From: Closterium sp. NIES-65
Taxonomy: Eukaryota > Streptophyta > Zygnematophyceae > Desmidiales > Closteriaceae
DNA length: 64,000 nt
Assembly: GCA_948144175.1 (NCBI GenBank)
Contig: CANXME010000886.1
Span: 744,001-808,000 of the forward strand
Reading direction: 5' to 3'
A program made the translations under genes and the position numbers. Shown piece by piece: positions 2,103 through 60,691 of this stretch (position 1 is the first letter of the stretch; each line of letters opens with the position of its first letter). Under the pieces are notes generated by a model that worked only from the letters and a program-made list of their open reading frames with translations, was not told the origin of the DNA and made no database searches.

Positions 2103-2391
2103 CTGCACTCCTACCCCCATTCCCCCCCCACCTTCCCGCAGCTGAACAAGTGCAGCAGCGCAGCCGAGCAGCCGTGTAGCCGCGAAGCGGAGCAGCAGCG
2201 TAGCCGCGAAGCTGAGGGTGGTGTGTGGGGGGGTGTGTGGGATTAGAGTTAGTACTACGGAAATCGGCCGATTCGACCTAATTTCGATGGTCTGAAAAAT
2301 CTCTCTACAAGGCATTCCGATGCGGCCGACATTGCGCGCCGCTCGTGACTTAAGAGCGGCGCTCCGCGCGAGACATTAAGGGACCTTCATC

Positions 2392-4395
2392 ATGGCCTTC
2401 TCCTCGTCCACCATGGCCAGCCCCATCACCCCGCTCCGCCTTGAAGCCGATGGCTCTAGCTCCAACTTCAAGGCATGGAGCTACAGGGTTGACAAGCACC
2501 TCCTGAGTCGTGACGTGCAGGGATTGGACCTCAAAGACGTTCTCCTCAACCGTGGCAAAGGAAAACAGCCCCCTCCCCCCCCTGAGCTGACCGAATCCGC
2601 TAGTGATACTAACAGGAGGGCGTACGAGGAAGCTGTTGAGAAGTACCGGAAATGGGAGAAGGCAGATGCTGCTATCATCAGCGTCTTCATTCCCTCCACC
2701 CCTCTCGAACTAGTCAACACGTTCCACAACTACCCTACCTCCAACACCATCTGGAAGTACCTCCAGGACCGGTTCATGAACAAAACGGCGGTCGGGGTTG
2801 CCATCCTCATCCCCAGCATATTCCAGGTCCGCCTTGAGGATTGCTCGGGAATGGCTGACTACATCGCCAAGGTGCAGACTATTCATGGCGAACTGAAGGA
2901 GCTGGGCATAGTCTTCCCCGAACAAGCCCCTGCAGCCGCCCTTCTTATTGATCTCACCTCGGCATATGAAGTAATGAGGAAGATGCTCCTCACGCTCTCA
3001 GCGGAAGACCTCACATTTGCTAAGGTCTCATCCGCACTCTTCTCTGCTGAGAAAGATTCCACGGCTCAAGCCAAGGCTTACGCCATCCGCGCTCCCATGC
3101 CGCAAGCAAGTGTCGCATCGGCCCTCGCCTCGGCGCCTTTCCAGCGCAACCGCTTCCCTCCGTGCACCTATGTCGTTAAGTATGGCAATCGCAAGGGACA
3201 AGTGTGTGGTGGCACTAACCACCCCCTTGCTACGTGCTTCAAGAAGAAAGACGACGAATGGTATGCCATTCACGGAGTGGACAAGAAGCCGCCGAACTGG
3301 ATGCGCCCTCGTAAGGCCAACCTAGTTGAGGTCCCGGACCCCGCTCCGGCTAGTGCTAGTGATAGTGCTCTTGCTGATGTGCGTATCAACCTGTTGTTTC
3401 CTGGCACTGCCATGATTAATGAAGCTTCCTCCCAGTACCTTGGCTCATCACAAGCACCACAATACATAGAGTTCACACTCGACAGCGGCGCCACACACAC
3501 TGTACTCAAGGAGACACTCTCCTTCAAACCCTACACAGCACCCATCCCTCTCCTAGGAGCTGACTCAAGCTTCACCACTCATGCCAAGGGTTCATCCACA
3601 GTCCCGTGCCCCGCCTTCCCTTCCGGCACTGTCACTGGAATGTGCGTGCCTTCACTCCGCCACTATCTCGTGGCCCAAACGGAAATTCAGGAAGCCGGGA
3701 TACGCACCATCTTCTGGGAAAACGAGAACTATGGTGATATCCTCGACCCACTCACCAACAAGGTCTTGACTCGTTTCACCCTCAACAGCAGCGGCCTTTA
3801 TACGCTACAAGTACCCATCCCACAGGTGTCAACCACCCAAACAGCGGCGACTACCTCACCATGCTCGTGCCGCAGTTTCTCCAACCCGACCATACTCTAC
3901 CACCATCGGCTCGGGCACCCAAACTTCTGCCCACTTGCTGACATGGCCTCCAAGAAACTTCTACTTGGCCTGCCAGCCTCACTTCCTCCACCACCAGACT
4001 CCCCCGCTCCCACGTGCCTTGACTGCACCAAGAGCAAACTGCGTCAACAGCCCCACCCGGCCTCACCCTCTGTCGCAGCAGGACCACTGGACCTGGTACA
4101 CCTGGACGTCTGGGGCCCTGCCTCTGTTCCCGCACGAGGTGGTTATCGCTACTTGTTATCGTCGATGACCACTCTCGCTACGTCTCTGTTCACCTCCTCC
4201 ACACTAAGGCTGCGGTTCCAGAGGTCCTCATGGCGTGGGTTAAACAGGCACAAACCACCTTTGACCGCAAAGTCAAGCGCCTCCACTCAGATGGTGGTGG
4301 TGAGTTTTGCAACGACAAGCTCAAAGCCTTCTGCTCTTCAGAAGGCATCCAGCAAAACTTCACCCTCCCTGACAGCCCGCAGCAGAACGGCATAG
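2392..4395 (+). pseudogene. Copia-1 gag, protease and integrase N-terminal half
   Basis: The frame opens at an ATG just after the leader. Residues about 25-235 form a copia Gag domain of the UBN2 type. Residues 258-282 hold a Cys-His box with unusual spacing, C258-X13-C-X4-H-X4-C, in place of the usual CX2C. The protease active site DSGA is at residues 364-367. A GAG-pre-integrase module follows (HHRLGHPN, then CLDCTKSK), then the start of the integrase core (DLVHLDVWGP). Near 4,150 one base appears to be missing, and the true integrase frame continues in the next frame. The last roughly 80 residues of this frame are therefore out-of-frame noise. Assignment as copia gag-pol is certain; the product is not functional here. 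Confidence 0.9.
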
Positions 4396-5861
4396 CTGAG
4401 AGCCGCAACCACACCCTGGTGCAGATCACTCGGTGCCTCCTCAGCCACTCCAACGCTCCACACTCTCTCTGGGGGTACGCTCTCTACCACGCCGCCCTCC
4501 TCTACAACCTTTACCCCCACCCGCATCTTCCCGACACCACTCCAACCACACTCTGGCTCGGGAAAACACCCACTGCTCGCTCTCTTCGCGTTTGGGGGTG
4601 CACCGCCTATGTCCTCCTCAACCCTCAGGCTCGACGGCAGCACGGCGGCAAGCTCAGTCCCAAGACCCAGACGTGCATCTACCTCGGGCACAACGCCGAC
4701 TCGCCTGACTACCTCTTCCTCAATCCCTCCACTCAACAGTTGGTCCGGAGCCGCGACGTTGTCTTTGATGAGACCCGCCCATTCTACTCCACTTCGGGAC
4801 GGGACCCTCTCCCTGATCCACCTTCCCTCGTGTGGGCAGACTTTGATGCGCCTCCTGACCTCCCGCCTGCTCCGGCCCCTTCACCTCCTACCCCTCCTGC
4901 CAACGCACCGTCCCCCTCTGCGGTCTCTGACCCGCCCTCACCGGTGTCTTCGGCAGCTGCTCCTCCATCCCCCTCACTTCCCACTCCGCCGACTGTGCAG
5001 CCACCTCCGAGCGTACTTATCACCTACCATCGGCGGTCCCACCCTCTGGCCCCACCTCCTCCCCCGGTTCCCCCCACCACAGAGGAACCCGCTCTCCCAC
5101 AGTCGCCCGAGTTGATCACGTACCACCGGCGGCCCATTCCCCCGCCCAAGCCTCCTAAGTCAACCCCTCCGACCCCGCCTGCCCCACCCTCTTCTCCGGT
5201 GGCTCATGGCACTCGTTCGCATGGCGCTGCTCTTCCACTAGCGCTGGTTCTTCGATACACGGCGATCACACCGCCTCCTCCTGCTGGGGGGGATGTGCCC
5301 TCTACCCTTCTGGAAGACAGGCATGAGGAGCTGTGTGATCTTCATGCAGTCATTCCTCAGCTCTCACACATCTTCCCCGACATCACTGACTCACCCTCCC
5401 TCAACTTCGCGGAGAACCCGACCATCCCTATCCCTCTCACCGTCCAAGAGGCTCTCTCAGGCCCTCATGCTGCCGAATGGCGTGCTGCCATGGAAGCGGA
5501 GATTGCAGCATTCACCCGCAACCACTCCTTCGACGACGAGACTCCACCTCCAGGAGTCAACATCGTCGGGGGCAAGTGGTTGTTCCGTGTAAAACAGCTC
5601 CCAGACGAGGCCCCGGTGTTCAAAGCACGTTACGTAGCCAAGGGCTTCACCCAGCTGCAGTACCGCGACTTCTTCCTAACCTTCTCCCCCACATCCAAAC
5701 CTCCCACCATTCGTACGGTCATGGATGTCGCAGCGCGAGAATACTTTGAGATCAAATCCATGGATGCCTCATCCGCCTTCCTACAAGGACGTCTCAAGGA
5801 GACAGTGTTCATGGACAGAGCAGAAGGCTTCCCAGGAGAATTCCCTCCCAACACTGTCTGA
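4160..5861 (+). pseudogene. Copia-1 integrase C-terminal half and start of RT
   Basis: After the lost base near 4,150 the integrase core resumes with the catalytic context HSDGGGEF and PQQNGIAE. The integrase C-terminal domain follows, then a Pro/Ser-rich linker of about 200 residues containing two LITYHRR motifs. The reverse transcriptase begins at about 5,440 (AEWRAAMEAE, GGKWLFRVK, KARYVAKGFTQ, MDASSAFLQG). The frame stops at TGA 5,859-5,861, where copia RTs normally carry a Trp before the YGLKQ motif, so a TGG-to-TGA change is the simplest reading. Confidence 0.9.
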
Positions 5862-10035: not shown

Positions 10036-12313
10036 ATGGAGAGTCTTAACCACTTCTATCGACTTCCAGATGACCTTCTCACGAAGATTCTATGGTTTCA
10101 GGATGGGATGCCTTCCCAGACTGGTATTGATTCTTCATGGGGCTCGCTTCCTGCTTGGCATTTTAGGGCAAATAAATCCACTCCTCCAGCCTGCGCGGAT
10201 GCAGCATTCAATCTGCTCATCGCGTCCGTATGCAGTCGCTGGCGTCAACTCGTTAAGCATGAAGTCACCGGCCTTCTAGTTCGAGAAAACCTTGTCGTGT
10301 CTCGTCAAAATTTGGCGAAGGCCGTGGCTTGTATCGCCAACCTAGAGGATCTTCGTCTGAGCGACGGCAGCATCCAAATTCTAGACGACTCGTTCCTCGC
10401 TCGCCTTGCTACCTCACGGCCCAAGCTAAAAGTTCTTCAAGTGGGTCGCGGGGTCACACCAAAAGATAGTGGAGGAGACAAGGATAAGTACCCAGTTACA
10501 AAAGCCGGTCTGGACAATTTTTTTTTTGAAGTGCACTCAGCTGGAGAAGATATCCCTTCACTGCCTTCATAAAAATGCTGAGTTACCGGATTCTTTTTTT
10601 CAGCTGGAGCGTCTTCATACTGTTCTTCTAACAGGCATTTCAGCCTTGACACTCTCCGAATATTCAAGACTTTCGTCTCTCACTTCTCTCCACATTGCTG
10701 TCCCGAAACTGACACATCAGCAACTGTCAGGTCTTGCTCGTATCCCAAGACTCACCATACTTTCGATCTCCAGTAACATCTGCCTTCCTGCGGTAACTTT
10801 CCCAGCTGCTCAGCTGCATTATTTGAAGACACTCGAGTTCAAGATCACTAGTCCTGGATTCACATCATTGTTCCCTCCGGGATCAACGCGCCTTCGTCTA
10901 GAAGAGCTGGTGATCACCCAATCCGCCAACCTGGAGCACCTTCCCGATGACATTGGAGAGCTGCTGCCGTCCCTTCGTGAGCTGACCATTCGTAACTGCT
11001 CTCAGCTCAACCACCTCCCCGAACAGATTACAGCTCTAACCGGATTGGAGTGCGTGTACATGTCCAAGTGCTCCAAAGTTCACAGCCTCCCCAAGGGTTT
11101 CGGACAGCTGCCTGCTCTCAAGACACTGATGCTGGAGGGGATGTCTCTCACAGAGCTACCCGACTCCCTCAGCCAAGCCACATCTTCGGAGAAACTACAC
11201 CTGGATTCATGGAACCTTCAGCAGCTGCCAGCAGAATTCTGCAACCTCACACCTCTCAAGTCACTGAGGCTCAAGATTCCCGGACTGGAGGTGCTTCCAG
11301 AAAGACTTGGATGGCTCAGCAATCTAGAGACTCTTCACGTGGATGGGTGCAGGCAGTTGTTTTTCCCCTCTTCGTTTACGCAGCTGTGTTCTCTTACAAG
11401 CCTTGAGTTCCGCCGCTGTGCAATTTTAATGCTTCCCTGGGGTTTAGACAAGATGATTAACCTGCAGCATCTTTTCATTTATGATTGCCATGCTGTCAGG
11501 GAGATACCGGAGTCTGTCACTGGACTCACTAGCCTTGTAACCTTGGTCATTGAGGATTGTACAGGGCTCTCATCGATGCCAAGAACGCTAAGTACCCTAG
11601 GGAAGCTCCAGCGGTTGAAGGTCACTAATTGCGGAGGGTTGCGTGGGTGTCCTCTGTCGCTGCCACTCTCCCTTGAGGCCCTTATCTGGACGAACATGAT
11701 AACTGCTTTCCTGCCTGTGACCTTCCTGTCTTCTCGTTTAAGGCACTTGGAGGTGGATTTGACAAAAAATACTGAACAGTTCTTGATCAGCGCGAGTTCC
11801 TTTCCTCAGCTCCAGTTCTTGAGAATCTGGGGTGCAAAGAGGATTCGGGCTCTCCTACAAGGCATCAGAGGGGCATTGCAGCTGCGAGAGCTGCGCCTTA
11901 GTTATCTTGAGGATGTCAAGCTACCAGAAACGATTTTACAGCTGCAGCAGCTGACATCATTGAGTGTTGTTCACTCACCCAAGCTGGCCTCAATCCCCGA
12001 CAGCATCGGAGCATTATCCAGATTGCGCATGCTGGATCTGTCAGGGTGTAAGGCCCTGCATCAGCTACCCTCGTCTCTCACGCAGCTTCGCTGCCTCTCC
12101 AAGCTTTGTGTTGGTGGGACTTCCATCCGCTTCTTTCCTCCCAGGTTAACACAGCTGACCAGCCTGAGGACACTCAACCTTCATGGCTGTTACAAATTGG
12201 AGGATTTGCCTATGGATTTGTTCAGGATGACGATGCTACAGAGTTTGAATATCTTAGGGTGCAGGCGATCCGACGACATACCCCGTGCGCTGCGCTGTAT
12301 GCTTAAGCCTTGA
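10036..12313 (+). pseudogene. F-box/leucine-rich-repeat protein, copy 1, frameshifted
   Basis: The ATG at 10,036 opens an N-terminal F-box-like segment (LPDDLLTKILWF, then ASVCSRWRQLV). A stretch similar to copy 2 (46,365-48,678, minus) and at least fifteen leucine-rich repeats of the plant LPxxLxxLxxL type follow. At about 10,518-10,527 there is a run of ten T where nine would keep frame. The first frame ends at 10,572, and the LRR part continues in the next frame to a stop at 12,311-12,313. Copy 2 reads N-F-F-L-K-C across this point, which supports a one-base insertion. F-box/LRR proteins usually act as substrate receptors of SCF ubiquitin ligases; that role is inferred from family. If the extra T is a sequencing error the gene may be intact, about 757 residues long. 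Confidence 0.8.
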
Positions 12314-13591: not shown

Positions 13592-13735
13592 AATGCATGA
13601 GATGGGGATGCATGAGATGGGGATGCATGAGATGGGAATGCATGAGATGGGAATGCATTAGATGGGAATGCATGAGATGGGGATGCATGAGATGGGAATG
13701 CATGAGATGGGGATGCATGAAATGGCTGATCCCCG
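13592..13735. repeat. 15-bp minisatellite, about 9 copies
   Basis: Units of ATGCATGAGATGGGG or ATGCATGAGATGGGA repeat in tandem. The 15-base period gives an open frame of His-Leu-Met-His-Ser repeats on the minus strand, which is not a supported gene. Confidence 0.9.
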
Positions 13736-14110: not shown

Positions 14111-14149
14111 TATCATCCCTCATCATCCCTCATTATCCCTCATCATCCA
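14111..14149. repeat. CATCATCCCT short array at left edge of gypsy
   Basis: Tandem ATCATCCCTC-type units abut the gypsy left end. The same units appear beyond the right end at 21,692-21,745, so the element sits inside this array. The array hides any target duplication. Confidence 0.8.
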
Positions 14150-14708
14150 TGTCGCGCTATTAACACATAGACTGCGGCTAAGTGTGAATTGCACAGCAGC
14201 TTAAGGTGAGGTTGTACTATATTGCTGTTTGGTTCTTGTACTCATACTTTCGTTTGTGTGCTTGGAATGTACTGTACATATATGGAGCCGAGCAGGGTGG
14301 AGAAGCTCGAGGAATTTGGTGGGGACAGGGTGGAGTTCGATTCCAGGCTGGGAATTCGGTTCAAGGCTGGGAATTCGGTTCCAGGCTGGGAATTCGATTC
14401 AGAGAATGCAATTCCAGCTGGAAGTCGGTGCATGCCTAGTGGGCCACTGGGACCCAGCTAGCACCTAGAAGCTATCGCGAGCAGCACTGCTGCTATGCGA
14501 CTTGGCAACTAGAGTTAGCTTGTGGGACAAGCAACCTAGGCAGAAGGATGGCTGGGACTTAGGCAGGGGAGGATACCTGCTCCGTGCTTTTTGCTTGTTT
14601 GTTTCTCGTAATACTGCAATTCGTTTCCCAACCAAGGAGGCAAGCAGCTAGGAGAAGCGAACAGCAAACTGACGGAGCCCTTGCGAGGGAGGATTTAGAC
14701 TTGTTGCA
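14150..14708 (+). repeat. gypsy 5' LTR
   Basis: The 559-bp LTR starts TGTCGCG and ends TTGTTGCA. Near 14,335-14,400 it holds 19-bp tandem units containing GGGAATTCGGTTCCAGGCT, one fewer than in the 3' copy. Apart from that the two LTRs differ at only a handful of positions, which implies a young insertion. Confidence 0.9.
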
Positions 14709-14854
14709 AATAAGCAAAAAGGTAGCGGTAGAGAAGCGTACGGGCGCAGAGGCCCGGTGTTAGCCACGGCGTCAGGGCCGTGAGGCATGAGCGATACGGA
14801 TCCAGATCTACACATCCATCAGTTGCGGTCGGGACAGAGGTATCCGCTAGGACT

Positions 14855-15517
14855 ATGGAAGGTCGGGAAGAGCCGCCTGTGAAGCCTGGATTCCATGCAG
14901 ATGGAGGAGTTAATGAAACGCAAGGAGGAAAGGGCCCTGATCTGCCGAAGGAGGGTGGGAATCGTCAGGAGAAATTGCCCAGCTCGGTGCACAACTCGCC
15001 AGGACGACAGAGTGAGGCGAGATCTGGGCAGCAAGGATCGCAGCAAGGAACGCCTGAGCGTGGTGAGGCGCACCCGAAGATCGAGATACCAGACCGCTTC
15101 TCAGGGGCACCAGGTGAAGAGCCAACCCTGAAGAACTACCTTATGATGATTGATGATATACGGTACACCTGGGAGAGAGAGGGGTTAGATCCGATATATT
15201 TTTTCAGAGGATTGGGAAGGACACTAAAAGGGGAGGCACTGACACACTACAGAGTGGAGCGTCAGGGGCTGCTAATGCAGTGCAAGAATGGTGACTTTGC
15301 GCAGGGAGAGATCACTGACCGATTTTTGGATACGCTGCGTGAGCAGTTCCCCGGGCACTCAGCTGAGCGTATGATAGAGTTCCAAGACTTTAAAAGAGGA
15401 CGGGCCGAGTCGCTGCTGGCATACTACAACCGGCTGCTGGAGCTGGCTGAGGATATGGGCTGCGTTGAGGAGCGTACCTTGGTGACGAAATTCCGGGGGG
15501 GTTGGAGGAGGAGCTGA
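14855..15517 (+). pseudogene. gypsy Gag, N-terminal part
   Basis: The first ATG in the open frame is 14,855. After a charged, disordered N-terminus comes a Ty3-type retrotransposon Gag domain (IPDRFSGAPGEEPTLKNYL, then LREQFPG, then QDFKRGRAESLLAYYNRLLEL). Near 15,497-15,503 there is a run of seven G where six would keep the frame through LEEELMNEMK. The product is cut short at 15,517 and the remainder of Gag continues in the next frame. Confidence 0.85.
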
Positions 15518-15779
15518 TGAATGAAATGAAAACACGTCTGTACGCTTTGGGGATGAAGGCGAGACTCAGGCAGGTGTATCAAGTGGCGAAAGAAGTGGAG
15601 GAAGGGCGGAGGTTCTTTGAAGGCCTGAGAGGAGCAAGCTCCAGCCGATCAAACAAGCGAAGGAGACCAGCCTCGGCAGCAGCTGAAGGAAGGAGGGGGG
15701 AGGAAGAACGAAGAGAGAAGCCCTGGGAAGACCCAAGGCGGAGTGTGGGGAAAAGGGGCATATACGGAAGGACTGCACA
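15502..15779 (+). pseudogene. gypsy Gag, C-terminal part to first zinc knuckle
   Basis: The frame continues Gag with an Arg/Glu-rich segment (KTRLYALGMKARLRQVYQVAK). A second frame change near 15,730 is needed to read into a degenerate knuckle (CGEKGHIRKDC, first Cys missing) and then the well-formed knuckles that follow. The coordinates give only the part that is best read in this frame. Confidence 0.75.
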
Positions 15780-16560
15780 GTGGGCATTTTATGCGACACC
15801 TGTGGCGTGGAGGGGCACTTCAGGCGAGACTGCCCCAAGGCTCCCACCTGCACCAACTGCGGCAAGAAGGGATACACGAAAGAAAGGTGTTACAGCCGAG
15901 GAGAGAAGGAGAAAGGGAAGTCCGCGAGAGAGCTGCAGCTGGAAAGGGAGCTGGCGAAACTAAAGGCACAGATGGAGAAGACTCAAGTCAGTGAGGATCC
16001 TGAGAAAGCGCTGCTAGCCTGGGAGGAAGACGAAGAAGAATCAGATGAGGAGGAACCGGAGTATGGTACGATGACATTACAATCTCGACCGCGGGAAGAG
16101 TTGGGGCTGAGGAGCAAAGGGGTAGACGGCAGAGCCAATGAAAAGGCCTACGAGAGGAGAGGCCCCAAGATACAACAGAGTGGAGATGAGAAGCGGACAG
16201 CACGGCGACGGCCTGACGAGAGAATGGTGTGTCAGCCTACGGCGTTGGTAGCTGAACCCGGAGTGGTGGCTGTAAGAGGCATACGGGTGGATAACGCGGT
16301 GGTGGACACTGGGGCGCAGAGTGTGCTGATTGGGAGGAAGCTGGGGGAGCAACTGAAGGCTTAAGGGGACTTGGAGCTAGTGGAACGGGGATTACTCATC
16401 ATGACGGCGGAAGGGGGAGCACCCAAATGGATGCCGTGCACAAAGGAGCCAATAGAGATTACGCTGCAGCCTGGGGGAAGGGGTGAGACCAAGATACGAG
16501 TGCAGTGCGGGATGACAGAATCAGATGACTACGACATCTTGCTAGGCATGGAGCTGCTGT
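15780..16560 (+). pseudogene. gypsy zinc knuckles and aspartic protease
   Basis: A CX2CX4HX4C zinc knuckle (CDTCGVEGHFRRDC) is followed by a second in which the His is Tyr (CTNCGKKGYTKERC). A Lys/Glu-rich spacer leads to the retroviral-type protease with active site DTGA at 16,305-16,316 and the second conserved strand DYDILLGMELL near 16,530. An in-frame TAA at 16,362-16,364 splits the protease. The frame is the same on both sides, so this is one nonsense change or, less likely, a readthrough site. Confidence 0.85.
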
Positions 16561-16769
16561 TTAGGGTTGGGGCGACAATATGTACTTGGGAGGAGCGGGT
16601 GCAGTACCGTACTGAACGTTGGAGGGAAGGAGGTAAGCTGGGCGAACTGCCGGTCAGGTTTGTTAAGACAGAACCCAAGAGGGCCTGGAGAGCAGGGGCG
16701 GTCAGGGGAGAGAGGAAGAATTGGGATGGAGAAAGCGCACTGGCAGGAATGGGGGCAAAGCTGAGTGAG

Positions 16770-17719
16770 TACAGTGTGACGCTAGTGGAGCTATTCGGAG
16801 GCATAGGGGCGGGGCTTGCAGCAGCCTTAGAGGCCGGCCTAGAGATTAAGAAGTGGCATTACATAGAGTTAGACCCGGAGGTGCGTAAGATGGCGTGGAG
16901 TCACGCCAGGGCCCTGCAGGAGCGGTATCCAGCGCAGCTGCGAAAGCAAGTCATAGTAGAGGCAATGAAGAGAGAGCATTGGGATGTAAGGGAGATCAGC
17001 AGGCAGGAAGTGAGGAGCTGGGGAAAGGTGGACTTACTGGTGGCCGGATGGGAGTGCCAGGGCACTTCTCGGGCAGGCAAGGGAAGAGGGCTGCAGGATG
17101 AGCGCACGGGGTTAATAAAAAAAGCTCCTGGAGGTCATGGCCTGGATGAGGGAAGAAGAAGAAGAATACGCGTACATCTTGGAGCTCGTGGATATGAAGG
17201 GCGATCCACGAGAACCGGTGCAAGCTGTGAGGGAGATGGTAGAGGAGCTAGGGAAGGGAGTGAGTTGGGGATGCGGCCCTGCACGGAGCATGATGTCACC
17301 GGACACGGTGCTACTGGCAGAACGTGCTACCAGAGGAAGATCTGCGCGCAAGACTGTCCAGGGTGGAGAGGGATGATCGGAGGATAGTGGAGGACATCCT
17401 GGAACCCGGGCGAGTGGCAGCTCCAGTGTGGAAGCCGGATCATCCCCTGCAGCACCAGTGCAACAGGATAGGAGAGGCACGACGAGCCTTGCCGACGCTG
17501 GTCGCCTATCCAGGAGCAAGGGGGTTCGTTGAGGCAGATGGCCAGCCTGGGCCAGGGATGATATATGACCACAAAAGGAAGAGGTGGGAGGAGCCGACAG
17601 CTTTGGAGAGAGAATTGGCTATGGGTTATCTAGCGGGAGCAACCGCAGCACCGGGTGTAAGTGAGGAGGCAAAGAGGGCAGCGGTGGGGAGAGCTATTGA
17701 TCAGCACTCACTGAGATGA
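16770..17719 (+). pseudogene. cytosine-5 DNA methyltransferase domain of gypsy polyprotein
   Basis: The domain opens with the AdoMet-binding motif I (LVELFGGIGAGLAAALEAG, core at 16,791-16,814) and an acidic IELDPE strand. Motif IV reads AGWECQGTSRAGKGRGL with the putative catalytic Cys codon at 17,055-17,057; the usual Pro before it is Glu. A motif VI-like ILELVD follows, with Leu where ENV has Asn. A motif VIII-like CHRTRCYWQNVLP is at 17,294-17,332, and the C-terminus (TALERELAMGYLAG, VGRAIDQHSLR) resembles motifs IX-X. The spacing and the RxRxxWxN block are most like DNMT3/DRM-type enzymes, which is an inference. Breaks: seven A at 17,117-17,123 (six keep frame), GGGG at 17,267-17,270 (three keep frame), TGA at 17,291 and TGA at 17,717. 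It is fused in frame after the protease and precedes RT. Confidence 0.9.
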
Positions 17720-17731
17720 CTGATTTGCGAA

Positions 17732-19597
17732 ATGAGGAAGGGGGAAAAGGGGCCTGGAGGTAAGAAGGCAGGGGGGGAAAGGGGGCTGCGGAAGCAGCCA
17801 GCGTACTCAGCGGTGGAGCTGAAAAAGGAAGTAAGGGCGGAGCCGAGGCAAGAGAAGCTGAATGTCAGCAAGGGGCCAGAGAAGGAATGGGAGATAGGGG
17901 CAGATGTGGAGGCAGGGGCTGCAGAGGCGATCAGGCAGCTGCTGAAAGCGCATAGGGGCACATTTGCATACAACTTGCAGGAGCTGGGGCAGTACAAGGG
18001 CGGGGAATCAGAAATAAAGCTCACGACGGAGATACCGACTTACCAGCGCAGGAGGCGCATGAATGCTGAAGATGCGGCCATCTGCAAAGAGAAGTGTGAG
18101 GAGCTGCTGGCAGCAGGAATCATCCGCCCATCCGAGTCTAGTTATGCAGCTGCCACGGTGGTCGCAGCCAGGAAAGATTTGACCGGCGCGGTTCTGTCAC
18201 GACGGATGTGCGGGGACTACCATGATTTGAATAAGATCACAGAGCCTGACCGCTATCCCATGCCGACAGCAGAGGATATATTTGACCTGCTGGAAGGGGC
18301 AGTCATTTTCACCACGCTAGACCTTAGGCAGGGGTTTAACCAAATTGCCATAAGGGAGGAGGACAAGCGCAAAACCGCTTTTCACGGGGTGGACGGATTG
18401 TATGAGTACAACAAGATGCCATTCGGCATGCGGAACGCATCTGCCGTGTTCCAGCGAGCAATGGATCAGGTACTGCGAGGCATACCAGCAGCAGCGTGTT
18501 ACATTGGTGATGTGCTGGTCTTCAGCAAAACGGACAGGCAGCATGTGGAGGACCTGAGACGGACACTAGAAGCAATAGCAGCAGCAGGACTCACCTGCCA
18601 CCCAGAGAAGTGTAAGATAGCAAGGCGGACGGTGGCGTATCTGGGATTTGAGGTGAAAGGGGGCAGGCTGGGTATTCAGGAGGCGAAGGTTAAGGTGCTG
18701 GACAAGCTGGTGCCGCCGAAGGACAAGTCAGGGCTGAGAGCATTGCTCGGCTTCCTGAACTACTACAGGAAGTTCGTGCCGAACTTTAGCCGGCGAGCGA
18801 ACCTCCTGAATCAACTGCTCAGGGAAGGAAAGCGATGGGAGTCGGGACAGGAGGAAGAGGCGGCTAGACAGGATCTATTAGAGGCAGTACGGACAGGCAC
18901 ACTGCTACAGATACCCAGGGCAGATGCTCCCTTCATGCTTTACACTGACTGGAGCTGCATGGGGATGGGGGCAGTCCTGTGCCAGGAGATTGAGCGAGAG
19001 GAGCGAGTGGTAGCATTTGCTAGCCGCAGCTGCAGCCCCACCGAGGCAAATTACTGCTGGTATGAAGGCGAGGGGTTGGCAGCTGTATGGGGCATCAACC
19101 ATTTCAGGGTCTACCTGCAGGGGCGTAGGTTCGTGCTGGTAACCGACCATCAGCCCTTGATGTGGCTGATGACAAACCAGGAACTGACGGGACGGAATGC
19201 CTGCTGGGCGATCAAGCTGCTGGGATACGACTTTGAAATTCGCCACCGCCCGGGCAAGACCCTCCAGCATGCTGACGGTCTGTCTAGGAACCCTCCACCT
19301 GTGCAGCCCCTGGCGCAGCTGGTAGCCGTAGCACAGGTGCCGGCAGCTGGCTGGGGGCAAGAGAAAGTGGAGAAGATGCAGCTAGATGTCTGGGAGGATA
19401 CCGAGACTCTGGAGTGGATTAAGGGAGGGAGCACGGAGGGCGAGGAGGCCAGTGAAAGGGCAAGGGCCAGGGGGCAGCACTACCGTTGGTACCAAGAGCA
19501 GCTGCAGCTTCGCACCAGTGAGGGATGGAAGATAGTGCCACAAAAGAAGGACAGGGAAAGGATCATGCGACCGGTGCATGGGAAGCTGGGGCATTAG
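17732..19597 (+). pseudogene. gypsy reverse transcriptase and RNase H
   Basis: This 621-codon frame holds a gypsy RT ([64 protein letters not shown]). The catalytic YxDD box reads YIGD at 18,500-18,511, so one of the two metal-binding Asp residues is missing. RNase H follows (LYTDWSCMGMGAVL, VTDHQPLMWL, HRPGKTLQHADGLSR). The frame ends at TAG 19,595-19,597 inside the integrase His-His zinc finger, directly after VHGKLGH, which looks like a nonsense change. With the YIGD change the RT of this copy should be inactive. Confidence 0.92.
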
Positions 19598-20782
19598 GGA
19601 ACGGCACACACCAATCAACTGCTGAGCACGATGTACTGGTGGGCAGGGATAAGGAGGGACGTCAAGGAGCTGGTAGATGAGTGTGCAGCCTGCAGTCGTA
19701 ACAAAGCAGCACTGGAGAAGGCAAGGGAAGAGCTGCAGTCATTGCCGATTCGGGGACTGGGCTACGGCTGGTCGCTAGATTTGGCTGGGGAATTACCTCT
19801 ATCCAAGAAAGGCAAGCAATACATACTCGTGATGGTAGAGCACACTAGTAAGTGGGTAGAGGCCAGGGCACTGCCGAGCAAGAACAGTGGGCTGATTGCA
19901 GAGGCGTTCGTGGAGCAAGTGATCACCAGGTTTGGGGCGTGCGGGGAGGTGTTAACTGACCAGGGTACCGAGTTCAAGGGCTGCTTTGAAGAGACTTTGC
20001 AGGAGCTGCAGATCACTCACCGTGTGACATCAAGGTATCACCCGCAGTCGGATGGGTTAAAGGAGCGGCTGATTCAGACGCTGAAGAGAGGGTTGCGGGC
20101 CTACGGGGAGACGAACAAGAGAGGATGGGACCAGAAGCTACACTGGATCCTTGCAGGTTATCGCTTTGCCAAGCAAGCGGCATTGAAGGACATGTCGCCC
20201 TACCATCTGCTGTACGGGAGGCACCCCATCCTACCCGTGGATGCACCGAAGTTGCTAAGTGCGACGGTAGATGCAGACGAGCCACACCTGTGGGCTGAGC
20301 TGGCTAGGAAGAGGGCGGCCTACCTGAAGGAACTGACGCCGGCAGCGCTGGACAACCTCCACGTGGCGCAGCTGAGGGACGCTAGGCGTTATCAACAGAG
20401 GAAGGCAGGAGAGGAGGGATGCAGACGTAAGGGAGTAGAGACTGGGGAGGAAGTGTACCTGAGGCAGCCCAAGCGAAATACGCTAGACCTGCCAGTCGGA
20501 CCAGAACGCTGGAAGGTGAAGGAGATGAGGCAGTCCGGGGTGCTGGTGCTAGAGGACGAGCGAGGAAGGCGCATCAAGGAGCACGTTACCAATGTGGCCG
20601 CGGCTGGAAAAGGGAAGGGTCAGGCTAAGGGTCCCGAAGCCAGAGTTGCCTGTGCTGGAACTCAGGCTCGGGAGGGGGCAGTGCAGCCTGAGAAACAAGG
20701 AGAAGGCAGGAGCAGCATCATCACATACACCAGGAGGAAGAAGAGGCAGATAGGCGGCACCGGGACAGGCAAGCAGGCATGA
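19598..20782 (+). pseudogene. gypsy integrase
   Basis: In the same frame as the RT, the HHCC zinc finger continues (YWWAGIRRDVKELVDECAAC). The DDE core has its three acidic positions: Asp in WSLDLAGELP, Asp in LTDQGTEFKG and Glu in SDGLKERLIQTLKR. The C-terminal part (YHLLYGRHPILPVD, RNTLDLPVGPERWKV) ends in a basic tail. I see no chromodomain. The stop is TGA at 20,780-20,782. Apart from the nonsense codon at 19,595 this module is intact. Confidence 0.9.
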
Positions 20783-20897
20783 GAGGATGAGGGTGAGAGA
20801 GGAGGTGGAAGTACCTGTCACGAAGAAACAGGGAATTTGAGAAAGAGGAAGAGAAGAACAGTCGGAAGAGCAGAAGGAGGGGAGCTACTTCACGACA
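20681..20897 (+). repeat. gypsy internal 3' tail (first copy)
   Basis: The segment holds the last codons of integrase and a purine-rich stretch (GAAGGAGGGGAG) that could be the polypurine tract. It is about 15 bases from the LTR and does not abut it as usual. An equally long near-identical copy follows the right LTR at 21,478-21,694. Confidence 0.85.
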
Positions 20898-20899
20898 GC

Positions 20900-21477
20900 T
20901 GTCGCGCTATTAACACATATCCTGCGGCTAAGTGTGAATTGCACAGCAGCTTAAGGTGAGGTTGTACTATATTGCTGTTTGGTTCTTGTACTCATACTTT
21001 CGTTTGTGTGCTTGGAATGTACTGTACATATATGGAGCCGAGCAGGGTGGAGAAACTCGAGGAATTTGGTGGGGACAGGGTGGAGTTCGATTCCAAGCTG
21101 GGAATTCGATTCCAGGCTGGGAATTCGATTCCAGGCTGAGAATTCGGTTCCAGGCTGGGAATTCGATTCAGAGAATGCAATTCCAGCTGGAAGTCGGTGC
21201 ATGCCTAGTGGGCCACTGGGACCCAGCTAGCACCTAGAAGCTATCGCGAGCAGCACTGCTGCTATGCGACTTGGCAACTAGAGTTAGCTTGTGGGACAAG
21301 CAACCTAGGCAGAAGGATGGCTGGGACTTAGGCAGGGGAGGATACCTGCTCCGTGCTTTTTGCTTGTTTGTTTCTCGTAATACTGCAATTCGTTTCCCAA
21401 CCAAGGAGGCAAGCAGCTAGGAGAAGCTAACAGCAAACTGACGGAGCCCTTGCGAGGGAGGATTTAGACTTGTTGCA
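20900..21477 (+). repeat. gypsy 3' LTR
   Basis: The 578-bp LTR matches the 5' copy but has one extra 19-bp unit (559 + 19 = 578). It starts TGTCGCG and ends TTGTTGCA. Confidence 0.9.
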
Positions 21478-21694
21478 GTGCAGCCTGAGAAACAAGGAGA
21501 AGGCAGGAGTAGCATCATCACATACACCAGGAGGAAGAAGAGGCAGACAGGCGGCATCGGGACAGGCAAACAGGCATGAGAGGATGAGGGTGAGAGAGGA
21601 GGTGGAAATACCTGTCAAGAAGAAACAGGGAATTTGAGAAAGAGGAAGAGAAGAACAGTCGGAAGAGCAGAAGGAGGGGAGCTACTTCACGACA
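21478..21694 (+). repeat. duplicate of gypsy internal tail beyond the 3' LTR
   Basis: This 217-bp segment repeats 20,681-20,897 with a few differences and ends CGACA directly against the CATCC array. TGTCG at 14,150 and CGACA at 21,694 are inverted copies, as expected at the ends of an LTR element. The true LTR may therefore include this tail, with the left LTR having lost it together with the primer site. Confidence 0.8.
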
Positions 21695-22245
21695 TCCCTC
21701 ATCATCCCTCATCATCCCTCATCATCCCTAATCATCCCTCATCATGCTTCACCATGCCACATCGTGCCTCATCACCTCATTATGCTCTTCTCCATGATCC
21801 AAATACATGTTCACAACTCCCCTCTCCCTCTCCCTCTCCCCTCTCCACTGCCACAACCTCTACTGCCACCGCAAGGATCCCAGCTGCTGCCCCACTGACT
21901 TTTGAGGCAATTCATAACTTAAAAAGTCAGTCGACTCGAAAGTCCTCTCCACTACCACAACCTCTACTGCCACCACAGGGATCCCAGCTGCTGCCGCTCT
22001 GCTTTATTTTGTATACCGTTTCAACCCCATCAGAGCCTACTAGTAGGTGAAGAATCAACCCTCTCTGGCGCCCAATCTTCTAATTTAGAGGTGGATACAC
22101 ATGCTTGCAGCAGGCAGGTGCACAGCATATGCAGCAGGCACATGGGAGGTGCTGAAAGCAGGCAGCAACACAGGTCAACCCCTACCAGGAGCTCAGTTCC
22201 CCCAAGCTCAGCCCCCAGGGTGGTCTCTCTGCAGAAATAAATACT
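21695..22245. repeat. CATCATCCCT array and repeat family R1, copy C
   Basis: The ATCATCCCTC array continues from the left flank of the gypsy element. From about 21,830 the R1 blocks reappear: CCCAGCTGCTGCC, a CAACCCCATCAGAGCC block, AGGTGGATACACATGCTTGC and CCCCCAAGCTCAGCCCCCAG. The CCTCTACTGCCACC segment occurs twice, at 21,850 and 21,960, around a short ACTTTTGAGG..AAAAAGT spacer. Confidence 0.7.
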
Positions 22246-46364: not shown

Positions 46365-48678
46365 GTCAGGATCTAACGAAGGTCAGCCCATGCATGTCCC
46401 GGAGGCCACGGCGCAGTGCACGGGACATGCCATCAAGCGCTTGCTTGCACCATCTGACATTCAACTCTTGCAGCACCTTCAGCTCCGTCAAATCCTCTGG
46501 CAACGCCTTCAATCAATCACAGCCAAATAGATTCAGTGTCCTCAGCCTGGTCAGCAGTGCAAACCTGGAAGGGAGATGATGGATGTTTTGTTAAGTCTAA
46601 GCACGCAGAGGCAGCGGAGCTGTGTGAGCGAAGATGGTAACTTCTGTAGGGCGTTACAATCTGATAGATCCAGCTCACGCAGCCTGGATAATCGACCGAT
46701 GCCATCGGGGATCGAGGTAAGCTTGGGTGCAAGGACCTTCAACAATGTCAGGTGTTGGAGCTGTGAAACCGTTTCTGGCAACTCCCGAAGTTCCTCAAAG
46801 TTACATAATCGCAAATCCCGCAGCTGCTGCACTGCGGAGCCGAAGTTTTCTGGAAGGGTCTGAATCCTTTTACCATTCAAGATACTCAAGACGTGGAGAT
46901 GGCCAAGTGAGCTCCAGGGAACGGAAAGCCTCTCCACGCCATCTGCCAATCCCAGCTCCAAGTTCCTCAGACAAATTGGTTGGGAGATTTTGAGGGAATG
47001 AATCGACCTGACCGTTGTTCTTCCAAGACAGAACCTCCAGGGAAAGTGGCAGCGACGTAGGAAACTGACTCAGCCGTTCACACAACACGACCCTCAGCCG
47101 CTTAAGCTTTCCAAGGCTGCTTAGCCTTCTCGGCAGCAAAGATACCCTTGGACAAAACTCAATGGTCAAGGTTACAAGGCTAGGGAGCGTTGAAACAGAG
47201 TCTGGAATCCTCCTGAGTGCAGAACACCCATGAATGTTTAGATGCTGCATGTTCCTCAGTTTTTCCAGACCATCTGGCAGCTCTTCAATCTCACAGTGGC
47301 TGAGCTCAAGACTTGTGAGAGAAATCAGCTGCGTGAACGAAGCAGGGAGCTGCTCCAGAATGCATCCACGCACGTGAAGAGTCTCTAGGCTGCTGAGCCA
47401 TTCCATCCTCTCAGGAAGCACCACCCCCCGAAGGCTCAATGTCTTGAGAGATGTGAGGCTGCTGAACTCTTCTGGCATCTGACGGAGCCTAAGTGTGCAG
47501 TGATGTAGGAACAGCCGCTCCAGAGATGTAGCTTGGCAGAGCGAGTCAGGTAGCTCCGAGAGCAGAATGCTCTCCAGCATGAGTGACTTGAGAGCAGCAA
47601 ACTGTCCAAATACATCCGGCACGCTGTAAAGCCGGTTACTCTCAGTAATGGTCAAACACTCCAATGCACGTAGGGAAGTGATACTGTCCGGGAGTTGGTC
47701 GAGCTGGTGGCAATCGCGAATAGTCAGCTCACGCAGGCACGGCAACAGCTCTCCAAAGTCATCGGGAAGGCGCTGGATGTTGGCGGATTTCGTGATCACG
47801 AGCTGCTCTAGACGGATCCATGGCCTTCTTGTAGGGAACAATGAAGTGAAACTAGGACTAGCCAGCTGGAACTCGAGAGTCTTCAGCTGAGCAGCTTTGA
47901 GAGTTGCAGCTGGTGAATCATTCTTGTACAGGTGGATTTCACTGGAAATAGAAAGTTTAGAGAGACTTGAAATGCGAGCGAAGGCTGACAGCTGTTTATG
48001 TGTCAACCTCGGGATAGCAATATGGAGAGAAGTCAGAGATGGAAGTCTTGCAAATTGGGAGAGTGTGACGGCTGAAATGTTTGTTAGGAAAACCGTGTGG
48101 AGATGCTGCAGCTGAAAGAAAGTATCCGGCAACTCGGCGTTTTTATGAAGGCAGTGAAGGGAAATCTCCTCCAGCTGATTGCACTTCAGGAAGAAATTCT
48201 CGAGACCGGCTTCAGTAACTGGGTGGCCATTCTTGCTCCCTCCACACCCCGTCGGTGTGATCCTGCGACCCACGTGAAGAGCTTTCAGCTTAGGTCGTGA
48301 GGAAGCAAGGTGAGCGAGGAATTCGTTGTCAACAATTTCGACACTCCCGTCGCGCAGGTGAAGATTGGTGAGGTTGTCGAACAAAGCCAATGCGTTCGCC
48401 AAGTCTTGACGAGATACGAAGCGGTTTTCTTGGACTGAGAGACTCGTGACCTGACGTTTGACGAGTTGACGCCAGCGGCAGCATACTGACGCGATGAGCA
48501 GATTGTGTGCTGCATCTGCAAAGGCTGGAGGAGTGAATGTATTCGCCCTAGAATGCCATTTAGGAAGTGAGCCACTTGAGGAATTAATATCAGTCTGGGA
48601 AGGCATCCCATCCAGGAACCACAGAATCCTCGTGAGGAGATCATCTGAAAGTCGATTAATGTGTGAGAGACGCTCCAT
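46365..48678 (-). pseudogene. F-box/leucine-rich-repeat protein, copy 2, broken near the C-terminus
   Basis: The minus-strand ATG at 48,678 opens 600 codons: an F-box-like start (LSDDLLTRILWFLDG, ASVCCRWRQLV), then leucine-rich repeats very like copy 1 (10,036-12,313). Near 46,965 the frame changes. Aligned to copy 1 it lacks about 8 bases where copy 1 reads FLSSRLRHLE. Repeats resume in the next frame (SIPDGIGRLSRLRELDLSDC) until a further change at about 46,565. The tail LTELKVLQEL through GLRDMHGLT ends at 46,365. Family function would be substrate recognition in an SCF ubiquitin ligase. The two copies are 36 kb apart in opposite orientation. A shortened protein of about 600 residues could still be made. 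Confidence 0.8.
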
Positions 48679-48690
48679 GACTTAAGGAAA

Positions 48691-49464: not shown

Positions 49465-50981
49465 TGTCAAGAGGGGCTAGTGTCATGACACCAACTCGGA
49501 GGACTATCCCTCCTGGTGTCAGCTTAACCGACCGATGTGATCGCGAGAAAACGCTCAATGTCTTGAAATTGAAGTAAATGATTAGGAAGGGTAAAGAGCA
49601 AGTAGAGAGAAAGAAAACTCCTAGAAGAAAGAGTTAAGAGTGAAGTAAGACGAAATTGATAAGATAAATAAACCTATGAAGAAGAGATTGAGTAAGAACG
49701 TAAAGGCTAAAAAAGTTAAGGATAAAAATAACAAACTTCAAAGGAAGATGATGAAAACATTTAAGGGAGAGAACAATTGATTGAAAGAAAGATATTGAGT
49801 GGGTGATTGATGAGAAGGTAAAAGAGCTTGAAAATTAAATAAACTTGATAATGGAAACTAAGATTTGAGAAGAAATGATACTTGATAGAAATGAAGAGGC
49901 TTTGAATAGGGAAGCTTTAATTGAGAAACTTGACAAGAGTGAAAGGAGGAGGTGACTTGCCTTAAAGAGTCTTACTTGTCATTTTGAAGGAGCTTTGTAA
50001 CTTGAAGAAGCCAAGCTTGAATTGTGAATCTTGATTGTTGGAAGGAGAGTGAGATCCAAGCTTGATTGTTGAGTAGATCTTGATTGTTGAGTGGAGAAGC
50101 ACCTCCAAGCTTGAGTGTTGAGGTGTAGATCTTGTTTATTGTGTAGAGAAGAACCTCCAAGCTTGAGTGTTGAAGGTGAAGCTTGAGTCTTGATTAGAAG
50201 AAAGTCAAAGGTTGATGTTGAGGCCTCAAAACTTAAAATGCACTAGTCCAAAGGAGGTATATGATGGTCTTAAAGAGCAACCATTGAAACAATCTAGTAG
50301 AAAGACTATGAAGCATAAGCTTCTCTAGAGTTGGAGAACATGGCTATGAGCTTGGATTGGGAGAGGTTGGTGGTGAGTGGAGCCTTAGGAGTTGGGCATG
50401 AGGAGGAGGACTTTGAAGTGGCCTTGTGAGAGCTTGGAGTAGAGCTTGTGGAGAGCTTAGGTAAAAACTGGCTTGAAAAGTATAAGTGAAGAATGGGGTG
50501 GACCCTTTGTTTTGTATTTGGTGGAGCTTGGGGTTGGATGAAGGAGAGGAGGAGATGAATGATTGTGATTGGTTAAGTTGGATAAGGTGGGGGTGATGAA
50601 TGTGGCCTTGAAGTGAAGGCTTGGTGAGTGGGATGAATGTGGCCTTGAAATTAAGGCTTGGTGATTGGAATGAATGGGGCTTTGATTTAAGGCTTGGTAG
50701 GGAATCTTTGGATTGATTGGTGGAGTTTGGGATGAGAAGGTTGAGGAGGATTGGAGAAGATATGAGGTGGAGGATTGAAGGATTTATATTGGCTGAAAAT
50801 GGAAGTGTGCCTTGCTGATTGGAGATAAGGATGATGAAGTGGCGAATGGGTAATGCTGGTAGATGCCCTTTGCAGATTCGAATTTTGGCTGACGGGGAAA
50901 CTGTGGCGAAATTTTTTGCCACGTGAAATTTTTCCCGCCACCCTGGTGCCACGCGAGCAGCAGCAACAGTTCATTCCAACA
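49465..50981 (-). repeat. Copia-2 3' LTR (inner end not fixed)
   Basis: Reading the minus strand, GCGAGGGGG is followed by TGTTGGAATG at 50,981, a typical polypurine tract and LTR start. A TATA-box-like CCAATATAAATCC lies at about 50,785-50,797. The end at 49,465 (CTCTTGACA) is a guess from other LTR ends here. The region is rich in AAGCTTGATTGTTGAG-type repeats (49,990-50,210). Without the other LTR the length cannot be checked. Confidence 0.55.
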
Positions 50982-52383
50982 CCCCCTCGCACTGCTGACC
51001 CTCGGAGCGAGAAGAAGGAGCGGAAGGGACAGCAGTGGAGAAGCACTCAAGAGACTCAATCGGCATCAATCCGGCGCGGTGGCGGCCAAGAAGAAAGAGG
51101 TGCCGGGGGAGGATCTTAGTCAGGAAGTCAGCAGCCTGGTCCGTGGTGCTGCAGTAGGCCGGTGTCACAACTTTGTTCTTAATCAGCTCTCGAATGTAGT
51201 GATACTGGATATTAATGTGCTTTGTGTGTCCATGATAGACCGGGTTCTTGCTCAAGGCGATCGCCGATGTGTTGTCAATGTGCACAATGGTCGGCTCATG
51301 CTGGGGAAGACCCAACTCCGTCAGCAACCCTCTCAACCACACAGCCTCTCTTGCTCCTTGCGTCACAGCCATGTACTCCGCCTCTGTTGAAGATAATGCC
51401 ACACAGCCTTGCTTCTTCGATTGCCAAGAAATAGCTGCTCCCGCTATCACAAACATGTAGCCTCCGGTGGACTTCCGCTTTGAAAGAGGACCTGCCCAAT
51501 CCGCATCCGTGAAACCATGCAAGACACTACCATGCTCATGTCCATGAATGAAGAGACCATAAGATTTAGATCCGGAGAGGTAGCGCAGGACACGCTTCGC
51601 AGCGTTCAAGTGCTGAGTAGATGGCGCGGAAAGGAACTGAGAAAGCACGCCCACAGCATGAGAGAGATCTGGGCGGGTGCAGACGGATGCGTACATGAGG
51701 CTACCGACAATGCTTTGGTAAAGATTAATGTCGATGGGGGAAAGGAGTGATGAAGGAGGTGCGTTGTAAGAAGAAGGGGATGAAGAGGATGAAGGTGCAA
51801 GAGCCTCGTGGAACTCGTCCCAGTCAGAAAAGGGTTCGGTCTGAGAGGGCTGATGGTCAGAAGTGGAAGGGGAAGAATGCTGAAAAGTAGAAGGGAGAGG
51901 TGTAGATGCAGGATTGCAGGTGAGAAGGCCAAAGCGAGAGAGGACCTTGTGAATGTATCGCTCTTGGGAAAGAAATAGAGAGCGAGAAGGACGGTCACGA
52001 ATGATGTTCATGCCAAGGTAATATGATGGCTCACCCATGTGTGTCATGACGAACTCCTTAGTGAGCATACCTTTGATGTGGGTGAGAAGGGAGAGAGAAC
52101 CTGACACCATGAGGATGTCATCCACATACACTATCAACCACAGTACCTGATGCACCTCCGTGTGCAGGATGTAGAGTGCAGGGTCATACTCAGACTGTGT
52201 GAAACCTTGTGCCAGCAAGGCAGACTCTAATGCGTGATACCAAACCCGTGGAGCTTGCTTCACGCCATACAGGGACTTGTGCAGCCTACAGACTCTCTCA
52301 GTACCATCATGATACCCATCAGGTTGAGACGTGTAAATCTCCTCCTCCAAAACGCCGTAAAGGAAGGCGTTGGAGACGTCCAG
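50971..52383 (-). pseudogene. Copia-2 RT C-terminal part and RNase H
   Basis: The frame continues directly from the upstream integrase-RT frame after a TAA at 52,384-52,386. RT motifs are SLYGVKQAPRVWY, the catalytic VYVDD at 52,137-52,148, and YLGMNI. RNase H shows FTDADWAG, SSTEAEYMA, HIDNTSAIAL and KHINIQYHYIRE. The stop TGA lies about ten bases inside the 3' LTR, so the polypurine tract is translated. This half is free of lesions. Confidence 0.9.
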
Positions 52384-60560: not shown

Positions 60561-60691
60561 CACCACTGGTGAGCTCTTGCCCTGCTAGCACGCTGCGCGT
60601 CGCCTGCTTGCCTGCCTGCCTGCCTTTTGGCTTGCCTGGCTGCCTGCCTCCCTGCTGCTAGTCCTGCTCCTGCTTCTACTTGCGGAGCCAA

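Follow-up and report, generated by a model that had tools for sequence, protein, structure and literature searches.

The window analyzed here, a 64,000-nucleotide stretch of contig CANXME010000886.1 (positions 744,001 to 808,000) from the zygnematophycean alga Closterium sp. NIES-65, contains a retrotransposon insertion at 14150-21694. Its parts follow one another in the order repeat A1, gag, protease, C5-cytosine methyltransferase (MTase), reverse transcriptase (RT), RNase H, integrase, repeat B1, repeat A2, and repeat B2, an arrangement referred to below as A-coding-B-A-B (Table 1). The insertion site lies inside a ATCATCCCTC microsatellite, and a tandem array of ~9 copies of a 15-bp unit (AATGCATGAGATGGG) occupies 13592-13725, immediately upstream of the insertion. 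Elsewhere in the window, Copia-type elements or their remains were identified at 2380-5861 (+), 50971-54570 (-), and 60662-62878 (+) through Pfam copia gag, integrase, SH3, and RVT_2 domains, and long frames of leucine-rich repeats, similar to plant resistance-type LRRs, were observed at 10430-12313 (+) and 46870-48681 (-). Rfam and tRNA scans of the whole window returned nothing.

Table 1 Features of the insertion and its flanks (window coordinates)
Feature	Position	Strand	Evidence or remark
Left target-site flank, TCCA	14146..14149	.	Flank comparison; L018, the partner copy sharing this site, reads TCCC
Repeat A1, 5' terminal repeat, start TGTCGCGC	14150..14708	+	
gag region, CCHC zinc knuckle, frames broken	14709..16250	+	
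Aspartic protease, DTGAQS, stop at 16362	16251..16763	+	Pfam match weak, under cut-off
C5-cytosine MTase domain, DNMT3-like	16764..17737	+	PF00145, tblastn, profile
Reverse transcriptase and RNase H	17720..19597	+	RVT_1 2.1e-27, RT_RNaseH 1.6e-30
Integrase, H2C2 zinc finger and DDE core (rve)	19598..20782	+	PF00665 2.6e-13, PF17921 2e-8
Repeat B1, end ...CTTCACGACA	20678..20897	+	
B1/A2 junction, CGACA-GC-TGTCG	20893..20904	.	Resembles joined element ends plus 2 extra bases
Repeat A2	20900..21474	+	7 mismatches at 559 sites against A1
Repeat B2, right end of the insertion	21475..21694	+	6 mismatches in 220 against B1
Right target-site flank, TCCC	21695..21698	.	

The window element is a degenerate copy and is dead, as its MTase is distributed among three frames (16764-17123, about 17125-17268, and 17270-17737) and interrupted by stops at 17291 and, at the domain's end, 17717. 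Further stops fall in the protease (16362) and after RNase H (19595), and the frame changes affect gag as well as the MTase. The gag region is ~150 bp shorter than in six other copies (L019, L022, L023, L024, L028, and L031), with the gap located at a 7-base overlap. The RT catalytic motif at 18500 reads YIGD (YIDD in copies L037, L038, and L039), and the integrase frame terminates within B1. TGG, the start of a tRNA primer-binding site, is absent from the 92 bases downstream of A1.

Identification of the methyltransferase domain

The initial annotation had placed an MTase at 16770-17719, between a gypsy protease and RT. Both the context and the position held up: the DTGAQS protease on one side and RT, RNase H, and integrase on the other flank a match to PF00145, and the coordinates were right to within ~20 bases of those obtained with P0022, an 890-aa protein of the window's subfamily from Closterium NIES-54 whose single frame spans protease (a weak match), MTase, and RT. 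Mapped by tblastn, P0022 matched 16764-17123 in frame 3 (91% identity), 17038-17268 in frame 1 (64%, partially overlapping the frame-3 piece), and 17270-17737 in frame 2 (93%). PF00145 itself matched the frame-3 piece 16365-17384 with E = 8.5e-5 (22.6 bits against a cut-off of 22), a significant match to the DNA_methylase family that removes the possibility of the segment having no C5 MTase relative. The C-terminal MTase piece of the window, searched alone, matched no Pfam family. A profile of ten related MTases matched the window element at E = 4.7e-65 and gave zero matches in the remaining window and in 5 codon-shuffled versions of the element. In L037, L038, and L039, PF00145 scores were 29.5-36.6 bits, over the curated cut-off.

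Four motifs are present in the window copy: I (FGGIGAG), IV (GWECQG), VIII (CHRTRCYWQN), and X (GRAID). The initial motif reading thus stands for I, VIII, X, and the Cys-Gln of motif IV, with the correction that motif IV is ECQ and not the canonical PCQ. In an alignment of 35 sequences, conservation is complete or no lower than 90% at the catalytic Cys, the Gln, the motif VI Glu, the motif VIII RxR, and the motif I glycines.

Motif IV of C5 MTases is PC(Q/N), in which Cys is the nucleophile, and to our knowledge its Pro is almost universal. The pattern was found in 24 of 29 Closterium proteins, as ECQ in 23 and DCQ in one, so that Glu or Asp replaces the canonical Pro in 24/24, with Cys and Gln kept. 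P0024, in which the pattern was missed, is also ECQ by reading, and the remaining four proteins have no such motif. Outside Closterium, 69 of 109 proteins matched the pattern: 48 have ECQ, 16 PCQ (including P0137, a bacterial-type enzyme of the usual kind), 2 PCE, and single proteins SCE, SCQ, and ECA; PCQ also occurs in L107 and P0010. When the Glu/Asp label was placed on a tree built with this residue masked, 16 changes were needed, 5 of them forced by well-supported branches. The Pro/Glu change therefore occurred, or was undone, several times, and these natural ECQ and PCQ pairs offer material for study of the C5 MTase catalytic loop.

A large gypsy-type family with intact members

The genome searched was that of the window, an 874-Mb assembly of 2,400 contigs. 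The PF00145 profile gave at least 123 matches (the best 123 of 901 candidates scored), and a search with the Closterium MTase P0003 gave at least 145 (the best 145 of 1,360 candidates, all with E <= 3.1e-100), a figure that includes allelic or duplicated contigs. The MTase segment is therefore not an accident of one copy. Frames of at least 2,000 aa were associated with 40 of the 145 matches listed, 36 of these being free of stops inside the match. In eight of the 145 listed, the frame has the same length to the residue (2,463 aa), pointing to either recent bursts or contig duplication. The full-length domain of the initial annotation is broken in the window copy, but intact frames exist in other copies.

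Three such copies were resolved by Pfam. The single frame of L037 (2,321 aa) encodes CCHC, protease, MTase, RT, RNase H, H2C2, and rve; that of L038 (2,150 aa) has the same series, with the protease below the Pfam cut-off; and that of L039 (1,795 aa) has protease (below the cut-off), MTase, RT, RNase H, H2C2, and rve, and no CCHC match. The protease-RT-RNase H-integrase order with a DDE integrase, a hallmark of Ty3/gypsy (Metaviridae-type) elements, is thus present. In the first protein search, 10 of 11 proteins came from Closterium NIES-53, -54, and -67 and the remaining one from an ENA contig; the L037 MTase and P0016 of Closterium NIES-65 share 98.8% identity across 334 aa. We conclude that the window element belongs to a large Ty3/gypsy-type family with recently active members, whose polyprotein reads gag-protease-MTase-RT-RNase H-DDE integrase.

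The MTase stretches of nine loci are open as they stand, and those with stops were excluded from the selection analysis. MTase dN/dS was 0.07 for L003 versus L039 (dN 0.08, dS 1.23), the well-measured pairs being only those of L003 with L007, L009, and L039, three nearly identical loci. Most MTase pairs are saturated: the other computable ones gave 0.18-0.26 at dS 1.8-2.8, near saturation, and the remainder were too close or yielded no value. For RT, dN/dS was 0.05-0.14 (computable pairs, dS > 0.2), and the close pair L028-L022 gave 0.69 at dS 0.04. MTase and RT distances were correlated (r = 0.91, 14 rows; 0 of 2,000 permutations as high) in a set whose range is widened by two metagenome rows and two near-identical pairs, indicating that MTase and RT travel together.

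Split repeats and target-site duplications

A genome search with repeat B returned 36 matches, of which two are the window's own, 29 lie in 19 stretches that were retrieved, and five, all short, were left out. The A-coding-B-A-B form was found at eight loci, namely, the window/L018 (the same site), L019, L022 (whose left end lies beyond the stretch examined), L023, L024, L037, L039, and L042. L037, L039, and L042 represent other subfamilies, and the form spans at least three sequence subfamilies. Two loci (L031 and L038) have a shorter A-C-B form, with a single A and a single B, and solo A-B units occur at L025/L026 (one site), L029, and L030. At L020/L021, again one site, A-B-A-B in one contig corresponds to A-B-A-B-A-B in the other, a difference attributable to unequal exchange between haplotypes or to duplicated contigs. 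L027, L028, and L032-L036 are tandem or partial remains. The solo and A-C-B forms are the expected leftovers of recombination between A1 and A2 or between B1 and B2, although the A-C-B insertions L031 and L038 could be a primary product rather than B1-B2 recombinants. L038 had at one stage been taken to lack terminal repeats, a reading rejected after comparison with L042 revealed its A-C-B structure.

A 4-bp target duplication was identified at 12 of the 13 sites with both ends in view: TCCC at L018 (TCCA/TCCC in the window, within a microsatellite repeating TCCC), CACC at L019, CATC at L020/L021, AAGG at L023, CCAT at L024, GGAG at L025/L026, ACTT at L030, GCTC at L031, ACTC at L037, TACC at L038, TGAA at L039, and CATC at L042. 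At L029, a solo A-B whose right end has eroded, no clear duplication was seen. The B1/A2 junction reads GACA-GC-TGTC in all junctions read (the window and 12 other loci, L021 twice) save L036, where TC stands for GC. At L024, A1 and A2 are identical (0 differences in 581) and B carries one change; given the identical A repeats, we regard L024 as a young insertion with the A-coding-B-A-B form.

L028 was also considered as a circularly permuted insertion. This was thought unlikely: its two gag cuts overlap by 4 bases, like a target duplication, and the foreign sequence adjoining the right cut is common to L027 and L028 (the left cut is seen in L028 only), from which a foreign element probably lies inside the gag of a tandem array. 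This foreign element (start TGTCAAAC) seems to be inserted at L028 1558/8514 and L027 9275, and the right flank of L039 matches its other end by eye.

The element had initially been described as lying within one LTR pair, a description that has to be replaced. Two simple identical end LTRs, a Ty3/gypsy hallmark, were not found, the repeats being split at all eight loci; the short target-site duplication, another Ty3/gypsy hallmark, is present; and so are the split direct repeats in A-coding-B-A-B order that characterize DIRS elements. DIRS elements use a tyrosine recombinase and are not known to make target duplications. The window family, in contrast, has a DDE integrase and target duplications, and no tyrosine recombinase match (PF00589) was listed for the polyprotein pieces of the window, L037, L038, or L039. 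This combination blurs the DIRS/LTR boundary and predicts specific cDNA forms.

Kinship and placement of the methyltransferase

A profile of 13 MTases (A2) run against PDB sequences retrieved DNMT3A first (5.3e-20), followed by DNMT3C and DNMT3B (DNMT3B 2.6e-17) and, lower, by M.HhaI (7e-10), 4onj (7e-9; PDB title, DNA methyltransferase), which we take to be a DRM, DRM2 (6e-8), and DNMT2 (1.6e-4); neither DNMT1 nor CMT was among the 60 rows listed. With a single Closterium protein as query, the values were 7.7e-4 for DNMT3A, 0.0096 for DNMT3B, and 0.018 for 4onj. Judged by these sequence comparisons, the element MTase is nearest DNMT3A/B, compared with DRM, DNMT1/CMT, DNMT2, and bacterial enzymes.

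A rapidly built 85-row tree places the Closterium MTases in one clade (23 rows, SH-aLRT 99) adjoining 58 other rows, 50 from metagenomes and 8 labeled chlorophyte (one of which, P0125, has no species name). The 81 rows split from two DNMT3 rows with support 83 and from two bacterial rows with support 99. Without the bacterial rows and with L107 and P0010 added, 83 rows stand apart from DNMT3 (SH-aLRT 98), and L107 and P0010 join the Closterium MTases (SH-aLRT 98). These trees set the group apart from the DNMT3 and bacterial rows, but with two DNMT3 rows only they cannot prove placement inside Dnmt3. The trees also combine long DNMT3 branches with few references, and many metagenome rows are fragments without demonstrated retroelement context.

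MTases of Chromochloris (P0047 and P0053, JGI code Chrzof1), Cymbomonas (P0110), and Chlamydomonas eustigma (P0102) and those from metagenomes group with Closterium, and ECQ is common among them. They differ in the place of the MTase, which in most cases with visible neighbors lies downstream of RT/RNase H or upstream of the integrase zinc finger; many metagenome rows have no visible neighbor. The MTase is upstream of RT in each of the 14 proteins compared that have both domains and come from Closterium or the window's genome. Chromochloris P0047 and Cymbomonas P0110, on the other hand, have RNase H, MTase, and H2C2 in a single protein (with weak H2C2 matches), and C. eustigma P0102 has MTase and then H2C2. 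Among metagenome proteins, the MTase follows RT in P0041 and P0070 and precedes it in P0050. Related MTases thus sit at two Pol places, split roughly into a streptophyte and a chlorophyte type, which may reflect either two captures or a single capture followed by a move. Other domains observed in MTase-match proteins were a PHD finger near the integrase in P0052, P0097, and P0133 and a G-patch in P0043, P0047, and P0111.

L107 (contig CADCWO010000201.1) encodes gag, protease, and MTase in one frame, followed by RT and RNase H. It differs from the Closterium elements in its canonical PCQ, although its MTase joins theirs in the tree. The contig was binned as an uncultured Synechococcales cyanobacterium and is probably misbinned algal DNA.

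A viral or bacterial origin was considered and rejected. A viral scan with alignment A1 yielded one locus, L001, on a contig that looks bacterial (an impression from its frames) and carries ordinary PCQ enzymes. Scans with profile A2 yielded 63 viral loci, whose matches covered 34-215 query residues at 24-50% identity, together with 37 loci on contigs assigned to prokaryotes. The most conspicuous of the 37 is L107, itself a gypsy element (E = 1e-60, with 37% identity across 342 query residues). No close viral or prokaryotic donor was found in these lists of 63 and 37 loci, L107 having been examined.

Proposed role and alternative explanations

Cytosine methylation is a main route of retrotransposon silencing in plants and animals, and here a genetic parasite seems to keep a means of silencing that its hosts normally direct against it. 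Retention of a DNMT3-like MTase in Pol, in at least 145 genome stretches with many long open frames, argues that the family must gain from it. The explanation of the whole that we favor, and hold to be reasonably probable, is that the window carries a degenerate copy of a gypsy family whose Pol MTase methylates the element's own cDNA, and whose split repeats, through their B-A junction, serve as a template restoring the element's ends. The MTase would be made in Pol together with RT and, as part of Pol, would enter the particle with RT and integrase. By analogy with the role proposed for published retrotransposon DNMTs, it may methylate cytosines of the cDNA before or at integration, and new copies so methylated might pass for methylated host DNA or avoid being recognized as foreign. 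In DIRS-type elements the B-A block restores ends missing from the RNA. In the window family the internal B-A junction, which holds both ends adjacent, could likewise be the template for ends lost at the RNA termini. Integrase would then act at the GACA/TGTC ends, with loss of the 2-nt spacer and a 4-bp stagger. We infer such a hybrid route from the gypsy enzyme set and from target duplications that point to cut-and-join by a DDE integrase, and offer it as a guess drawn from sequence.

The CpG observed/expected ratio is 0.61 in the window element, between those of its flanks (0.57 and 0.66), 0.61 in L024, and 0.71-0.85 in L037, L038, and L039. The window element is not CpG-poorer than its flanks, no element-specific methylation footprint was found in these ratios, and the earlier suggestion that host and element share control of silencing gains nothing from them. 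Copy-private C-to-T and G-to-A changes were ~2.9 times denser at CpG (91 of 500 versus 153 of 2,458 positions, in eight copies, two of which, the window and L018, are one insertion), a pattern that fits genome-wide methylation and is silent on which enzyme methylates.

The competing accounts concern either the structure or the enzyme. That a host or bacterial MTase gene fell by chance into a single retrotransposon copy might be supposed from the broken frames of the window copy by itself, but it is refuted by the genome-wide matches, the in-frame fusions in three copies, and the single Closterium clade, and we give it practically no credence. Hardly more credible is an artefact in which a plain LTR element (LTR = A) lies beside a rearranged tandem copy. 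Tandem and solo forms do exist (L020, L021, L027, and L028); however, the arrangement recurs at eight loci in three or more subfamilies, the seven with both ends in view start with A, end with B, and have 4-bp target duplications, and the same form is reported for the KnitGypsy-Dnmt3 element in a figure legend (PMC5890265, Fig. 4c).

Doubts about the enzyme carry more weight. The MTase could be catalytically dead and retained for DNA or nucleosome binding or for polyprotein cohesion, as the uniform loss of the motif IV Pro in Closterium might suggest. The altered residue is not the nucleophile, though, and the conservation described above, of the nucleophilic Cys and of key residues in motifs I, VI, and VIII, speaks for activity, which makes this reading unlikely. 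We find it a little harder still to accept that the enzyme has an RNA substrate (host RNA, the element's mRNA, or the tRNA that primes it) or modifies host chromatin in trans. DNMT2, of the same superfamily, methylates tRNA, and a changed substrate could accompany the altered motif IV; against this, the nearest solved kin are the DNA enzymes DNMT3A/B, with DNMT2 far weaker (1.6e-4 versus 5e-20). RNA methylation was raised for SymbioLINE-Dnmt by de Mendoza et al. (PMC5890265). We retain methylation of the element's own cDNA as the proposed role; Closterium, which is culturable, belongs to a class close to land plants, and by present data has young copies, would make that role testable.

Comparison with known retrotransposon methyltransferases

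We consider it possible, and advance it tentatively, that the green plants, streptophyte and chlorophyte algae alike, carry an ancient gypsy lineage with its own de novo DNMT. In such a lineage the catalytic loop would have been retuned (Glu for Pro), the enzyme would have moved between two Pol places, and split repeats with a B-A circle junction would be used by a retroviral-type integrase, making it a DIRS/LTR hybrid.

That retrotransposon MTases occur in dinoflagellates and charophytes, as the initial annotation stated, is published (PMC5890265, de Mendoza et al. 2018). A later article citing that paper mentions DAM-/DCM-encoding Ty3/Gypsy and DIRS elements in green algae, charophytes, and others (PMC6338049), so a green-algal occurrence is not wholly unreported. 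The main text of PMC5890265 contains no occurrence of Closterium, Chromochloris, Cymbomonas, Chlamydomonas, or chlorophyte, and that of PMC10407611 does not contain the words retrotransposon, methyltransferase, or LTR. Within the literature covered (titles and abstract openings, with subscription journals mostly outside the scope), no retrotransposon DNMTs were reported in Closterium, Chromochloris, or Cymbomonas, and split repeats in a gypsy element were reported only in PMC5890265. The earlier idea of a new lineage in this host is therefore borne out in part: Closterium is absent from that main text, but KnitGypsy-Dnmt3 already embodies the same basic idea.

In Symbiodinium, SymbioDIRS-Dnmt3 and SymbioLINE-Dnmt resemble the window family as retrotransposon-borne C5 MTases, and SymbioDIRS shares the A-coding-B-A-B form. 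Unlike the window family, they rely on a tyrosine recombinase or a LINE endonuclease and not on a DDE integrase, and they are reported as independent acquisitions (PMC5890265). From the same source, methylation activity of SymbioDIRS-Dnmt3 was shown in yeast, and cDNA methylation was proposed for SymbioDIRS by its authors.

The closest counterpart is KnitGypsy-Dnmt3 of Klebsormidium nitens, which PMC5890265 describes as an LTR Gypsy element with DIRS-like repeats whose Pol ORF includes a Dnmt3-related MTase. Purifying selection is reported for it, and its DNMT produced no methylation in yeast, a result that the authors called inconclusive. The text consulted gives neither the MTase position in the KnitGypsy Pol nor its motif IV letters nor any target duplications, and the terms protease and target site do not occur there; no Klebsormidium-named protein was among our 138 MTase-search proteins. 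Compared by description only, the two systems are alike in their charophyte host, in a Dnmt3-type MTase within a Gypsy Pol, and in DIRS-like repeats. They differ in host class, that of the window family being Zygnematophyceae, and the window family has ECQ. The Closterium family is thus a second charophyte case. It is present in many copies, shows target duplications, and has an altered motif IV, and its MTases have a wide circle of relatives in chlorophytes and metagenomes.
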